Shown here in pieces: positions 18,601 to 33,582 of a stretch of DNA of 38,499 nt. How positions within the stretch are numbered: position 1 is the first letter of the stretch; each line of letters begins with the position of its first letter. The notes below the pieces were generated by a model. It made no database searches and had not been told where the DNA came from. It worked only from the letters and a program-made list of their open reading frames with translations. The stretch is from contig CANQJK010000011.1 of the NCBI GenBank assembly GCA_947624235.1, positions 1 to 38,499 of the forward strand. Reading direction: 5' to 3'. Made by a program: the position numbers and the translations under genes. This DNA comes from an uncultured Clostridia bacterium (lineage in GTDB: Bacteria > Bacillota > Clostridia > Christensenellales > CAG-314).

Positions 18601-19213
18601 AGCAAAATCCCAAACTGCGCTGTGCGTCAGCGTCTCCCTGTTCTGCAGATTTGGTAAACCAGTAGACGGCTTGTTCGTAATTCTGTTCTACGCCTCTCCC
18701 AATTTCACAACAGAATCCCAAACTATTCTGTGCGCTTGCATTATCCTGTTTTGCAGATTTAGTAAACCAGTAGACGGCTTGTTCGTAATTCTGTTCTACT
18801 CCTCGCCCGTCATAATAGCAATCTCCCAAACTATTCTGTGCGTACGCATTGCCCTGTTCTGCAGATTTGGTAAACCAGTAGACGGCTTTTTTGTGATTCT
18901 GCCCTACGCCCTCGCCGTTTTTATAACAAAGTCCCAAATACCACTGCGCATACGAGTCTCCATGCTTTGCTGATTTGGTGTACCAATTTACCGCTTGCTT
19001 AAAGTTTTTCTCTATACCTTCTCCGAAATAAAAGCAATTTCCCAAATTGAACTGTGCGTCAATATTGCCCTGTTCGGCGGATTTAGTCCACCAGTAGACA
19101 GCTTGCTCGTAATTTTGTTCTACACCATCACCTTCGTAATAGCAACAACCTAATTGGTATTGCGCTTCGGCGTCGCCCTTTTCGGCTTTGGCAAGCAATT
19201 CTTCGAAGTTCAT
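15635..19213 (-). CDS. Sel1(12)-TIR-NACHT STAND protein, candidate NLR-like immune protein
   Basis: The 1,192-residue protein has three parts. Residues 13-445 are twelve Sel1 repeats of 36-37 residues (consensus YEQAVYWYTKSAEQGNADAQ, then FNLGICYDDGKGVEQN). Residues about 477-640 are a TIR-like domain: YDMFVSWNHHDK at the start, then SRNSLQSNWVATE with Glu562 where NAD-cleaving TIRs have their catalytic glutamate. Residues about 715-1075 are a NACHT NTPase: Walker A GEGGTGKT (722-729), Walker B IIYVFDGLDEI (800-810), FIFTSR (834-839), and the winged-helix-like signature THDIFTSFFACRYVY around His1060. Only about 115 residues follow, with no C-terminal repeat sensor. ATG 19213 follows GGAGGGGAAC. 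From known bacterial TIR and NACHT systems I infer ligand sensing, ATP-driven assembly, then NAD depletion and cell death on phage infection. It is a single-gene unit with its own promoter. Confidence 0.9.
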   Translation of the reverse strand: MNFEELLAKAEKGDAEAQYQLGCCYYEGDGVEQNYEQAVYWWTKSAEQGNIDAQFNLGNCFYFGEGIEKNFKQAVNWYTKSAKHGDSYAQWYLGLCYKNGEGVGQNHKKAVYWFTKSAEQGNAYAQNSLGDCYYDGRGVEQNYEQAVYWFTKSAKQDNASAQNSLGFCCEIGRGVEQNYEQAVYWFTKSAEQGDADAQRSLGFCYENGQGVEKNYEQAVYWYTKSAEQDNATAQWFLGLCYEKGDGVKQSYEQAVYWFTKSAEQGDAYAQNSLGDCYYYGEGVEQNYEQAVYWYTKSAEQGNADAQFNLGICYDDGKGVEQNYEQAVYWYTKSAEQGNAIAQNSLGSSYYFGEGVEKNYEQAVYWCTKSAEQGNADAQFNLGICYDDGKGVEQNYERAVYWYTKSAEQGNKYAQKYLGELYEKGCDGVKGDIEQALKYYKLASDQGDEEAKEAYDRLLKENQRQLEQSLQIANNGNRYDMFVSWNHHDKAFKDKLVNAVENYNFDRTGKHDGKVFAHYRAWDSDREASGVITDCIQSVVNNIKFFVVILSRNSLQSNWVATESKMFLDRIDRGEISAENLFVIYVNEEGFDVGMELSADRKDLSSEEASRYEVFHRLSVYAGKYRSADSNDDELVHRLCDNIRETLEAEALDRYRSLQRELSPFAITLKNVSANRLVGIGASEVKTTLNYDNGYVDRMLITTSGEKSLEQIFAEGKNLYILGEGGTGKTLFISQLIRKHFCDNNFFVRFNFADSMTLSNFKQSKYLTDFANAELNRSLADDEYRSAEPMVRARNNGKNRIIYVFDGLDEISDDARRALCEMVEQYMRSQRGDRFIFTSRTDDVFGRLQSALGDLEKCQLRKFDRVDCEKLFDNIAQNATFNLPSDIMDNKDAQSRQNAQERQKQSLKKSFFEMLEMIEDDIKANPMLLSNLIFIHLYNRGRGAEADTVNKHSLLDLSVKIFLNDLEEDRRILDRFPNCKQFLKSGKLSDLLETVAYRKLCSAEDKHFEELIKEYYIDKAHSDKDSEDAKLLNSLTPEQIGKEIYDYLSSRGIITQEQITHDIFTSFFACRYVYKIIYRLRNDDIDYYIGWQEDQNTSLGKLNKLMTPRRLGSDNYMWQDVAVDLVMKLDYEIHGVTQEEMDEYNANYEVFDATLDRALRQRGYSNGAINTITHLTERKGGLYFAEFIRSYLS
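17881..19177 (-). repeat. Sel1-repeat coding array (108-bp units)
   Basis: Twelve units of 108 bp (the last 111 bp) encode the Sel1 solenoid. Neighbouring units differ, but the segment from about 18025 recurs at 18241 (offset 216 bp, two units) over roughly 140 bp with about two mismatches, so part of the array was recently duplicated. The units are in frame and coding, not a CRISPR array. Confidence 0.9.
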
Positions 19214-19620: not shown

Positions 19621-20025
19621 CTAACGTTTGCTGAATTGCGGAGCTTTGCGGGCTTTTTTGAGACCGTATTTTTTACGTTCCTTCATGCGCGGATCGCGAG
19701 TGAGGAAACCGTTCTTTTTGAGCACTGCCTTGTCCTCGCCTGCAAGCACCAACGCACGACTGATACCGTGGCGAATTGCGCCTGCCTGACCTGTGTAGCC
19801 ACCGCCCGTGACGTTGACTGCAACGTCGTATTTGCCCAGCGTATCCGTGGCGTTGAGAGGTTGACGTACGATGTACTTCAAAGTGTCCAGTCCAAAATAG
19901 TTGTCGATATCGCGTCCGTTAATGGTGATAGTTCCGTTTCCGCCGGGGATAAGTCTTACGCGAGCAATGGACTTCTTTCTTCTGCCCGTTCCCCAAAATT
20001 GAACCTTTTTGCTTGATTTAGCCAT
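19621..20025 (-). CDS. rpsI: 30S ribosomal protein S9
   Basis: The 134-residue protein shows the S9 hallmarks: [20 protein letters not shown] near the N terminus, [19 protein letters not shown] in the middle, and the basic C-terminal tail ending KAPQFSKR, whose terminal residues contact tRNA in the ribosomal P site. It starts at ATG 20025 with GGAGGA upstream. It is the second gene of the conserved rplM-rpsI pair, separated by 14 bases. Confidence 0.98.
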
Positions 20026-20039
20026 TGTCTATCCTCCTC

Positions 20040-20474
20040 CTAGTCCAACACCATCACTTGCGGATGTTGCGCTTCGTGCTTGTGTTCTGCGCCCTTGTAG
20101 ACGCGAAGTTTTGTCAGCATCTTTCTGCCGAGACTGTTGTGGGGAAGCATGCCTTTAACTGCGTGCATAACAGCAAAGTCGCTTCTTTCCGCCATAAGCT
20201 TGGCGTACTGCGTTTGTTTGAGATGTCCCGGTCTGGGAGAACGACGAACGTACATTTTCTTTGTGAGCTTGTCGCCCGTGAGCACCACTTTGTCGCAATT
20301 GATAACGATGACGTAATCTCCGCAATCGACATGCGGTGTAAAGGTGGGCTTGTGTTTTCCGCGAAGAACGGACGCAACCTGACTTGCCACCCGTCCGAGA
20401 GGCTTGCCCGTAGCGTCTACTACATACCAATTTCTTTCCACGGCTTCCTTTTTAGCCATAAAAGTTTTTACCAT
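20040..20474 (-). CDS. rplM: 50S ribosomal protein L13
   Basis: The 144-residue protein has the L13 pattern: [20 protein letters not shown], a central [20 protein letters not shown], and [21 protein letters not shown]. It is a core large-subunit protein. ATG 20474 lies nine bases after CAGGAG; the frame extends 16 codons upstream without a better site. It is the first gene of the rplM-rpsI operon, behind a leader of about 115 bases. Confidence 0.98.
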
Positions 20475-30202: not shown

Positions 30203-31432
30203 TCAGCCGTCAGTTTCGGGAGCTTCTCTCGTCAGCGGACCGCGCGCAATGACGGCGTCTACCCGTTTGTAACTGTTTGTGCGTATCAACTTTGTGCACA
30301 CGAGTTTGCCGTCGCGGTAGTATTTGAGGAATGACTTCGTCTTTACGCCGTCCGAACCGCCCACCACCACCTTGGTTTGATCGGCGTACACGAGGTCGGG
30401 ATACTTTTGTTCGTCCACAATGTAGTTGGTGGCAAATTTGTCGCGAGTTTCCACGCTAACGCGCTCCACCGTGTAGGGGTTTGGCTCGCCGTACACGGAA
30501 AAATACACGTTTTTGTCTTTTACCCAGGCGGAAATATACACGGGGTGCTCCGTAGTGTTCACAAACGTCAAATCTGCCGAACCGTAACTCACCATTGCGT
30601 CAAATCCCGCCTTGACGTAGGAGGACACCAACGAGTGTTGCATTGCGCAGGGCAAAAAAGAGGACAACAACAGCGCGTTGTAAAGCGTTGTGGATACCTG
30701 ACATACGCCACCGCCCACGCCCTCTGCGTAAGCGCCGTCCATTATCACTTTGGAAGTTTTGTAGCCCCTTGCCTCGGTGCGATCTCCCACGATTTGGTTG
30801 AAACTGAATTTTTCGCCCGCCTCCACGATCGTGCCGTTGAGCGCGTCCACGGCCTTTGCTATGTTGTAACTTCGGTTTGCTCCGCTGTTTGCAAAGGACG
30901 TGCCGAACGTCGCCCTGCGCACCGTGTTGGCTTTTAGTTCATCTACGGTCATCGCCCTGTCCACATTGAGAGGGAGCGTTATTTTGAGAAGTTTTCCGCA
31001 AGATGTCAGGGCTTTTTCAAACAGTTTTTGTGCGTCGATCGCCACCCCGTCCTGCCCGTTTTGGTAGTGAAATCCCTTTTTGTCAAATTGTACCGAAGCG
31101 TCCGCCCTTTCCCTGCGGACGTAGGCAAAGTGCGCTGTTATGCTGTCGAAGTTAGGCAAAATATAGTTGTAAACGGCTTCGTCGGGCAAGCCGAGACTTT
31201 GCAATCTGCGGTAGAGATCTTGCTTTCCGCTTTGACCGAGATATATCCCTCGCGCCGTCGTATCCGCACCGCCGATGTTGTCGCTCAACTTGTATTCAAA
31301 AACATCTCCGCGGTATTCTACGCTGAGCACAACGTCCCACGGATAAACGCTTTGCGCAAAAACGCTTTCGCAAACAAAAACGCTCGCCAATATCGCGAGC
31401 GCAAGTGCAAACGTCAAAAATATTTTTTTCAT
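30203..31432 (-). CDS. Exported VanW-family protein with a C-terminal G5-like domain
   Basis: The 409-residue protein has a signal peptide (MKKIFLTFALALAILASVF, likely cut after VFAQ). The centre, about 170-320, carries the VanW-family pattern: RRATFGTSFANSGANRSYNI, EKFSFNQIVGDRTEARGYK, GVGGGVCQVSTTLYNALLL and NTTEHPVYISAWV. About 330-400 resembles a G5 domain. VanW proteins are cell-envelope associated and were first seen in vancomycin-resistance clusters, but most, as here, stand apart from any vanHAX genes, and function is unknown. Its ATG overlaps the stop of the PHP gene (ATGA), indicating translational coupling. Confidence 0.88.
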   Translation of the reverse strand: MKKIFLTFALALAILASVFVCESVFAQSVYPWDVVLSVEYRGDVFEYKLSDNIGGADTTARGIYLGQSGKQDLYRRLQSLGLPDEAVYNYILPNFDSITAHFAYVRRERADASVQFDKKGFHYQNGQDGVAIDAQKLFEKALTSCGKLLKITLPLNVDRAMTVDELKANTVRRATFGTSFANSGANRSYNIAKAVDALNGTIVEAGEKFSFNQIVGDRTEARGYKTSKVIMDGAYAEGVGGGVCQVSTTLYNALLLSSFLPCAMQHSLVSSYVKAGFDAMVSYGSADLTFVNTTEHPVYISAWVKDKNVYFSVYGEPNPYTVERVSVETRDKFATNYIVDEQKYPDLVYADQTKVVVGGSDGVKTKSFLKYYRDGKLVCTKLIRTNSYKRVDAVIARGPLTREAPETDG

Positions 31433-32241
31433 ATTCCCAGTACCTTGCGAGTGTACCCATTGGGCGAAAAACTCTTTGTTCCCAACTCCTTGCCGTGCAC
31501 ATAGTCATGAAAATCACTGCCGCCTGTGGAAACGAGCTTGTATTTTTTCGCCATACGGTTGTAGAAATTACGCTCGGAGATATTGTGTGTAAAATAGTTT
31601 GCTTCGATACCCGAAAGCCCCACGGCGACAAGCGGTCTCAAAAATTCTTCGAAAGCGCGTTCGTTCAGATGCAACTGCTTGGGGTGCGCCAAAACGGGGA
31701 TACCCCCGAAACTCAAAGTAAAACGTATCGCTTCGGCGGGCGTAAGCCTGCGCGTCTGCACATAACAGCATTTGCCTGCTCCCAAATATTTGTCAAAAAC
31801 TTCGGCAACGTCTTTGCAGTAGCCCAAACGCACCATTTCGCGCGCGATGATCGGCCTGCCCACATAGCCCTGCGACGACAGGGACGACAAGTCGATGTTT
31901 ATTCCTTGCTCCGCCAGCTTTGCCACCATTGCCACGTTGCGTTGATTTCTCAAATTGGCTATGCGTTGCAAATTCTCTTCGAACTCGGGCGCGTCGATAT
32001 TGACGTTGTACGCAAGCATGTGAACGTCTGTACCGTTCTGCACGCAGGACAACTCTCCCCCGACGAGGTATTTGATGCCCAACTGACGAGCGCGCGCCTG
32101 TGCGCGTTTTGTACCGCCAAAATTGTCGTGATCGGTGATGGAAATACACTCCAAACCGCGTTCCTGCGCCATATCTACCAGTTGTTCGGGGCTGAAAATG
32201 CCGTCGGAAAAGTCGGAGTGAATGTGAAGATCGCATTTCAT
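31429..32241 (-). CDS. PHP-domain metal-dependent phosphoesterase (RNase AM/nucleoside-bisphosphatase-like)
   Basis: The 270-residue protein shows the PHP metal ligands in order: HIHSDFSDG at the N terminus, ITDHDNFGG, VGGELSC, HMLAYN, VLAHPKQL and GSDFHD. This set and the length match the YciV/RNase AM-type family that hydrolyses 3',5'-bisphosphonucleotides or trims RNA 5' ends; the exact substrate is inference. ATG 32241 has no ribosome binding site and lies six bases after the predicted -10 box, so the message is probably leaderless. It is the first gene of a two-gene unit with the VanW-family gene. Confidence 0.9.
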   Translation of the reverse strand: MKCDLHIHSDFSDGIFSPEQLVDMAQERGLECISITDHDNFGGTKRAQARARQLGIKYLVGGELSCVQNGTDVHMLAYNVNIDAPEFEENLQRIANLRNQRNVAMVAKLAEQGINIDLSSLSSQGYVGRPIIAREMVRLGYCKDVAEVFDKYLGAGKCCYVQTRRLTPAEAIRFTLSFGGIPVLAHPKQLHLNERAFEEFLRPLVAVGLSGIEANYFTHNISERNFYNRMAKKYKLVSTGGSDFHDYVHGKELGTKSFSPNGYTRKVLGI

Positions 32242-32247
32242 ATTTCA

Positions 32248-32276
32248 AATATACCAAATTTTGCAAAAAGTGTCAA
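32248..32276 (-). promoter_or_regulatory. Predicted promoter of the PHP-VanW operon, giving a leaderless message
   Basis: On the minus strand TTGACA (32276-32271) and TATATT (32253-32248) are spaced by 17 bases. Only six bases separate the -10 box from the ATG at 32241, placing the RNA start at or next to the start codon. Confidence 0.7.
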
Positions 32277-32340
32277 CGATTAGACAAAATCCGCACGGTT
32301 TGCCACAACGAGAACTCGTCGCGCACTTCTCGAAAAACTA

Positions 32341-32369
32341 TTGAAAAAAAGATTTTTTTGTGATATCAT
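32341..32369 (+). promoter_or_regulatory. Predicted promoter of the GNAT gene, giving a near-leaderless message
   Basis: TTGAAA (32341-32346) and TATCAT (32364-32369) are spaced by 17 bases. The ATG is at 32380, so the leader would be about four bases or fewer. No ribosome binding site precedes the ATG. Confidence 0.65.
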
Positions 32370-32379
32370 ATTTTGTGCT

Positions 32380-33096
32380 ATGGAACAACTTGCAATAAAC
32401 AAAGAACTTTTGGACTTTTTCAAATCAGATCCCGAAACCCTGCTTTTTGACGGCTTCGCCTGCTACGACGACAACGCGGTCGCCTATCGCGAAGGCAACA
32501 GTCTTGCATTGGTGGCAAAAGTGCGCGACACCTACAAACTATGTCTCAAAACGGACAGCGAGCAATTTGTGCTGAATATACTTTCCTCGCTTCACGGTAA
32601 AATCGAGTTTTGCGGAGTTGACACCTTTGTGACAGAGTGGATCAGACCGCGCTACCCCTTCGCGTGGGAAACAAATTGTTACCTCTACGCTTGGAACGGC
32701 AAGCCGTTGGAGTACGTTTGCAAGGAAAAATTGTACCCCATGTCGGCAAAATACGCTCAAATGATATCCGACGGCACACATTACGGCGCTCCCCTCGAAG
32801 AAATAAAGGAGAGTTTGAAAATGTATCCTTCCGTGGCGGTGTTTTTGGACGGAAAGCCCGTTAGCTGGTGCTTGTGCCACAACGACAAAAGTCTCGGCAT
32901 GCTGTACACCGTGCCCGAGCACCGTCGCAAAGGTTACGCGTTGGAAGTGATGACGGCGCTGTGCAACAAAGTTATTGCCGAAGGCAATGTGCCCTATGCC
33001 TACATTGTGCGCACAAACACGCCCTCTTTGAATCTTGCGCCCAAATACAACCTCGAACGAGTGAAAGAGGCGGACTATTTTTTGATAACAAAGTGA
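32380..33096 (+). CDS. GNAT family N-acetyltransferase
   Basis: The 238-residue protein ends in a GNAT domain: PSVAVFLDGKPVSWCLCH (beta strands), then the acetyl-CoA loop LYTVPEHRRKGYALEVM (V-x-x-x-x-R-x-x-G-x-A pattern) and the C-terminal NTPSLNLAPKYNLER. The N-terminal 120 residues are a diverged first half like FR47/glycine-acyltransferase-type relatives. Substrate is unknown. I chose ATG 32380 (MEQLAINKE); the TTG further upstream coincides with the predicted -35 box. It is divergent from the PHP gene. Confidence 0.8.
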   Translation: MEQLAINKELLDFFKSDPETLLFDGFACYDDNAVAYREGNSLALVAKVRDTYKLCLKTDSEQFVLNILSSLHGKIEFCGVDTFVTEWIRPRYPFAWETNCYLYAWNGKPLEYVCKEKLYPMSAKYAQMISDGTHYGAPLEEIKESLKMYPSVAVFLDGKPVSWCLCHNDKSLGMLYTVPEHRRKGYALEVMTALCNKVIAEGNVPYAYIVRTNTPSLNLAPKYNLERVKEADYFLITK

Positions 33097-33192: not shown

Positions 33193-33582
33193 ATGCTTTC
33201 TTGTATCGGAGAGACTTTCGTGGAAATTCTCAAAAACGAATGGTTGGGCATTGTCGCATCTGCGTTCGTGTTGGTATCGTTTTTGTTCAGTAAACAGACG
33301 GTAACGCGCCTCATCAATATTTGCGGTTGCATTGTATTTGTCGTGTACGGCATTTTGTTGCCCGCATACTCCACCGCTTTTATGAACGGCGCACTTATAA
33401 TAGTGCATATCGTGTTTCTTGTAAAAGACTACCTTGCCAAGAAAAAAGGCAAAGGCGCGCCCGAAATTGCAGACATTGCCGAAGACTCCTCCGCAAACGC
33501 GCAAGTTGAAGGTTTCGGCGTAACGGACGTTGGTATTAGTTCCGACAACGGCGCCGACGACAAAATCGACAACGGAAATTGA
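33193..33582 (+). CDS. Small YgjV-like membrane protein
   Basis: The 129-residue protein has about three hydrophobic segments (WLGIVASAFVLVSFLF; INICGCIVFVVYGILL; GALIIVHIVFLVK) with the TRLINICG ... YGxLL ... N(G/A)xLIxxxIxx pattern seen in YgjV/Imp-like proteins. The 50-residue C-terminal tail is acidic and soluble. Function is unknown. ATG 33193 follows AAAGGAG. It stands alone, about 100 bases after the GNAT gene on the same strand. Confidence 0.65.
   Translation: MLSCIGETFVEILKNEWLGIVASAFVLVSFLFSKQTVTRLINICGCIVFVVYGILLPAYSTAFMNGALIIVHIVFLVKDYLAKKKGKGAPEIADIAEDSSANAQVEGFGVTDVGISSDNGADDKIDNGN

Follow-up and report, generated by a model that had tools for sequence, protein, structure and literature searches.

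As put in the part of a review cited here (PMC9031893), 70S ribosomes bind the AUG of leaderless mRNAs directly. According to excerpts of a survey of 953 bacterial genomes, leaderless genes occur in 207 of them, those of the Firmicutes being concentrated in Lactobacillales and Mycoplasma, and information-storage categories are relatively higher among leaderless genes (Zheng et al. 2011, PMC3160421). Published accounts of cultured Clostridia, likewise cited from excerpts, report 15 potentially leaderless genes in C. difficile (PMC7438776), approximately 2-3% leaderless transcripts in three solventogenic clostridia (PMC9045289) and, for C. phytofermentans, a 4% leaderless share among intergenic sense starts, the genes concerned generally having a further start upstream as well as a typical ribosome binding site (PMC5171806). 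For C. acetobutylicum, an excerpt counts 212 leaderless transcripts of genes whose proteins were detected. No publication on leaderless genes in family CAG-314 was among the matches listed in a literature search that was largely confined to work outside subscription journals.

The DNA analysed here (the window, 38,499 nucleotides in all) is contig 11 of a 94-contig genome totalling 1.66 Mb, which is grouped in the genus of Candidatus Fimimonas. The genus description, in the part cited here, places Fimimonas in order Christensenellales, family CAG-314, in GTDB release 95 (PMC8035907). In NCBI taxonomy, Candidatus Fimimonas (taxid 2840648) is filed under Myxococcaceae, and a sequence from the same genus as the window, JAMPAB010000014.1 (L094), carries the title Corallococcus sp.; in both cases a misfiling seems likely. 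A sequence-only reading of the window had singled out a divergent pair of apparently leaderless genes, one encoding a PHP-domain protein and the other a GNAT-fold acetyltransferase.

Results

Promoters and start codons of the PHP and GNAT genes

The PHP-domain gene (31429..32241, minus strand) encodes a protein of 270 amino acids that matches Pfam PF02811 (E 4.1e-14). The best curated models for this protein are 3',5'-nucleoside bisphosphate phosphatase (NF041577; E 5.1e-56, 189.8 bits, cut-off 400) and RNase RNM (NF047791; 160.1 bits, cut-off 375). With both scores far below the cut-offs, the protein appears to be a PHP-domain relative of these families. Direct reading and a promoter scan recovered the arrangement initially proposed: on the minus strand, a TTGACA -35 box (32271..32276), a 17-nt spacer and an extended -10 box, TATATT (32248..32253, with TGG upstream), followed after six bases by the ATG (32239..32241). 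Transcription generally starts some 6-7 nt from the -10 box; thus, the PHP mRNA would begin at the AUG, the predicted start, placed by its distance from the -10 box, lying at or beside the A of this codon.

The GNAT gene (32380..33096, plus strand) encodes 238 amino acids with matches to Pfam families FR47 (E 3.7e-12) and Acetyltransf_1 (E 3.2e-7). It too begins with ATG, and here again direct reading and the promoter scan agree with the first description: a TTGAAA -35 box (32341..32346), a 17-nt spacer, an extended TATCAT -10 box (32364..32369, with TGA upstream) and ten bases to the ATG at 32380. This layout supports a nearly leaderless GNAT transcript, with a predicted leader of 2-4 nt; unlike the 6 nt of PHP, the 10-nt distance exceeds the roughly 6-8 nt between -10 box and start codon that mark a leaderless gene, and qualifies as leaderless only under the "leader under 6 bp" definition found in an excerpt of the work on solventogenic clostridia (PMC9045289). 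The term "apparently leaderless" is therefore well supported for PHP, on the strength of its orthologs (see below), and for GNAT only in the sense of such a 2-4 nt leader.

As initially noted, neither gene has a ribosome binding site: no Shine-Dalgarno (SD) match of at least four bases was found 3-12 nt before the PHP or the GNAT ATG. The clear sites ascribed to neighboring genes do precede several of them (GGAGG before the ATG at 19213, AGGAGG at 20025, AGGAG at 20474 and AAGGAG at 33193), but not the gene after PHP (ATG 31432), where there is only a weak AAGG. The latter gene (30203-31432, minus strand), which overlaps the last bases of PHP, encodes a VanW/G5-domain protein and is probably carried on the same mRNA as PHP. 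Translations resembling the VanW/G5 gene were also seen, by eye, after PHP in several other loci of the genus. PHP could also be transcribed into a longer mRNA from a further promoter within GNAT, running antisense to that gene.

Conservation of the two layouts

Orthologs were scanned with a promoter threshold looser than that of the genus-wide sample described below and, by design, for ATG starts only. A PHP ortholog was present in all 25 genus genomes searched, the window's own included. The -10 box lies 6 nt before the ATG in 23 of these; the two exceptions are L019, at 7 nt, and L016, at 9 nt and with a weak AAGG as well. The -35 box matches the consensus at all six positions in 24 of the 25. 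Outside the genus, in 12 genomes that represent ten genera of the family and whose PHP proteins show 40-58% identity, the distance is 6 nt in nine, 7 nt in one and 9 nt in one (for G051 and G043, the ATG used precedes the aligned start by a few codons); the remaining gene (G048) lacks a close -10 box and has a 4-base SD-like match. Identity to the window's PHP protein goes down to 41% among the orthologs with a close box. The promoter spacer (32254-32270, with GCAAAATTTGG before the -10 box) is conserved as well. By coordinates, TGNAAAATTTGGTATATT is matched at the PHP promoter, with at most two mismatches, in 16 of the 25 genus genomes. A role for the spacer as the operator of a regulon was considered and rejected, since at the same stringency TGNAAAATTTGGTATATT matches the PHP promoter alone in the window's genome.

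The GNAT layout is less stable. A -10 box is found 6-10 nt before the ATG in 11 of 19 orthologs, a count from which the weak paralogs L050-L060 are left out (6 nt in two, 8 nt in one, 9 nt in five, 10 nt in three). Seven of the eight orthologs lacking the close box are also devoid of an SD, so that for this gene SD absence alone proves little. All eight (L035-L041 and L043) are divergent from PHP.

Taken alone, the two promoter sites of the window are weakly beyond chance: the scan of 32150-32550 returned two promoter-like sites, whereas shuffled sequence gave 0.6 on average (sd 0.9). It is the orthologs that make the case. That the boxes are chance matches in AT-rich intergenic DNA, with the real promoters lying upstream, is to us a highly improbable explanation: the scan found no promoter-like site in this interval besides the PHP and GNAT ones, and the 6-nt PHP distance recurs in 23 of 25 genomes within the genus and in 9 of 12 outside it, although the upstream DNA otherwise varies. 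Less probable still is that the starts were misread and that translation truly begins elsewhere, behind an SD. An in-frame TGA lies two codons upstream of the PHP ATG, and DLHIHSD, which we take to be a motif typical of PHP proteins, spans residues 4-10, making a longer or much shorter protein implausible. GNAT does offer an in-frame TTG at 32341, the only longer start listed, but this codon falls inside the -35 box of the gene, and in the closest ortholog (L032) no start codon precedes the ATG in frame. A longer true start with a ribosome binding site, named in the sequence-only reading as what would refute it, is thus improbable for either gene.

The facing arrangement of the two genes could be taken for a coordinated unit in which both leaderless starts matter, for example through a regulator shared between the promoters, and indeed in the window's genome and in G021 the two genes diverge and each has a close -10 box. 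By coordinates, however, GNAT adjoins PHP divergently in just 10 of the 19 genomes, and these two are the only ones of the ten in which it has the close box, the other eight being without it; where GNAT lies elsewhere, the box is present in nine of nine (Fisher 0.0007). Moreover, no GAAC-N4-GTT site was found in 32201-32420, the PHP spacer and -10 box have no second match in the window's genome with up to two mismatches, and the PHP layout is kept with or without GNAT alongside. Hence, the facing pair, put forward as a meaningful arrangement in the initial description, does not represent two leaderless genes conserved as a unit. By these comparisons the divergent pairing is incidental, and we give very little credence to coordination between the two starts.

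Close promoters at lexA and AddB

Similar layouts were found at two other genes, whose starts were placed by coordinates. LexA was found in 23 of the 25 genus genomes; partial or second matches (L216, L217, L271-L274) and rows to which no locus belongs are not counted. The -10 box lies 6 nt before the lexA ATG in all but one of these 23 loci (L193-L215), the exception being L213, which has AAAGGGG before the ATG. In 22 of the 23 loci lexA is also preceded by a GAAC-N4-GTTT site, similar to the Bacillus LexA operator, that starts 56-57 nt upstream of the gene. The 6-nt box recurs in five of eight lexA loci from other genomes of the family. Among 18 loci from other families of the order, where the start was taken as the nearest in-frame ATG and some starts may be wrong, only one has a close box (L256, 7 nt, possibly by chance), and 11 of the 17 others have an SD. 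For PHP, and to a large extent for lexA, the close-box layout thus persists beyond the genus within the family.

AddB behaves differently, its layout, like that of GNAT, differing between species of the genus. With fragments lacking the N-terminus left out (L238, L242), a box occurs 6-9 nt before the ATG in 15 of 25 AddB genes, none of which has an SD. Eight of the ten AddB genes without a close box have an SD, including the window genome's own (L236); these ten include L229, where a TATAAT lies 7 nt before the ATG but the -35 box is too weak.

A probable leaderless class in the genus

The sequence-only reading had proposed counting -10 boxes a few bases before ATG codons. This was done in 60 stretches of 20 kb from five genus genomes plus the window (61 stretches, 1,238,499 bases), which contain 988 ORFs of at least 100 codons, some of them surely spurious. 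For promoters matching the consensus at 9 or more of 12 positions, we scored the distance to an in-frame ATG near the ORF start. Two matches were obtained at 0 nt; 0, 0, 0, 0 and 1 at 1-5 nt; 19 at 6 nt and 10 at 7 nt; 3, 3, 6 and 3 at 8-11 nt; and 0-3 per position at 12-18 nt. Distances of 6-7 nt thus account for 29 matches, where 1.8 would be expected from the twelve flanking positions (1-5 and 12-18), which together have 11 (Poisson p ~8e-25). Because the promoter threshold is strict, 29 of 988 gives a rough size of the class. The same idea fared less well when the perfect consensus TTGACA-16/18-TATAAT was sought across the 25 whole genus genomes, with 33 occurrences at 6-7 nt versus 25 at 12-13 nt before any ATG, a contrast that is probably weak because most ATGs are not starts. 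The ORF-anchored counts were therefore used; a contrast in promoter distance does not emerge unless each ATG is linked to an ORF. These counts point to a minority leaderless class that would be general in the genus, alongside ordinary SD-led genes. The view that such starts are unusual in Bacillota is right only in part: the excerpted maps of cultured Clostridia contain leaderless transcripts, from a handful up to a few per cent, and this genus has them as a regular minority class.

None of the 29 sample ORFs with a box at 6-7 nt has an SD, as opposed to 73 of 101 with a box at 19-40 nt. When PHP, GNAT, lexA and AddB were pooled, an SD was found in 1 of 90 close-box starts versus 24 of 40 others (Fisher 1.5e-14) and, after removal of the order-level loci, in 1 of 89 versus 13 of 23 (p 4e-10), values that overstate the difference because the rows are related by descent, orthologs not being independent samples, and because the geometry excludes most SDs. 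Such contrasts are partly built in, since a -10 box 6-7 nt before the ATG fills the place of the SD; what is informative in them is that most starts lacking a close box have an SD. Matches to 16S rRNA were found in 2 of the 25 genus genomes; the one 3' end among them (G004) reads GGATCACCTCCTTT / GGATCACCTCCTTTAAGG, with a normal anti-SD. Judging from this one 3' end, the SD system would be intact, and a changed 16S tail was ruled out as the cause of the missing SDs.

Thirteen of the 29 sample ORFs at 6-7 nt (26 of which were scanned, a second AddB, L147, and two PHP rows being named by likeness) encode DNA replication or repair (8) or RNA-modification (5) functions, versus 1 of 18 leadered controls (Fisher 0.007), a bias that is a lead only, because the categories were picked after the data were seen. 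The controls are the 18 scanned out of 20 drawn, and the single positive among them, a ChlI/ComM-type ATPase, was counted generously. For DNA replication and repair genes alone the difference is not significant (8 of 29 versus 1 of 18, Fisher 0.12).

Discussion

The data presented here suggest that sigma-70-type promoters lie so near the PHP and GNAT start codons that the mRNA begins at the AUG itself (PHP) or 2-4 nt before it (GNAT), and that both genes belong to a minority leaderless class of the genus. We regard this as very likely; the layout is probably real and of a known kind. With the mRNA beginning at or next to the AUG there is no room for an SD, so that translation most likely starts by direct ribosome binding to the 5'-terminal AUG. 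By analogy with work on other bacteria, it would be the 70S ribosome that binds in this way. From sequence we infer this mode of initiation, as well as the position of the transcription starts and any effect on expression.

It is tempting to speculate that the family keeps a selected leaderless set, biased to DNA repair or replication and RNA modification, and that changes in 70S availability or in initiation factors thereby tune genome and RNA maintenance together. The proposed set comprises LexA (behind its GAAC-N4-GTTT site), DnaA, a RecF-type protein, AddB, a Y-family polymerase, Nth, a DNA-deoxyinosine glycosylase, MnmE, TsaE, a TcdA-like protein and the PHP phosphatase/nuclease relative. 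We hold this idea tentatively and consider it rather unlikely.

The findings suggest that, in a gut Clostridia family that possesses an SD system, certain genes remain leaderless over long distances, and that single genes such as AddB and GNAT vary between close relatives in having a leader. The AddB and GNAT variants offer naturally matched pairs in which the consequences of leaderless initiation can be studied. The results also call for caution with gene callers that lean on SD sites.

Leaderless mRNA is a known mechanism, for which family CAG-314 is a new lineage. As far as the excerpted text of Zheng et al. goes, the genes described here are like the TA-led genes of Actinobacteria and Deinococcus-Thermus in that a -10 box sets the transcription start at the start codon and no SD is present; they differ in coming from a family of Clostridia with, in the one 16S tail available, a normal anti-SD (PMC3160421). 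Within the order, lexA of other Christensenellales families, encoding an orthologous or related repressor, lacks the close -10 box in 17 of 18 loci, unlike lexA of this genus. The low share of leaderless genes is similar to that in the parts cited of the studies on cultured Clostridia (PMC7438776, PMC9045289, PMC5171806). Unlike the leaderless genes of C. phytofermentans, as portrayed in the excerpt (PMC5171806), the starts described here are without an SD, and in the case of PHP and lexA different species share the layout.
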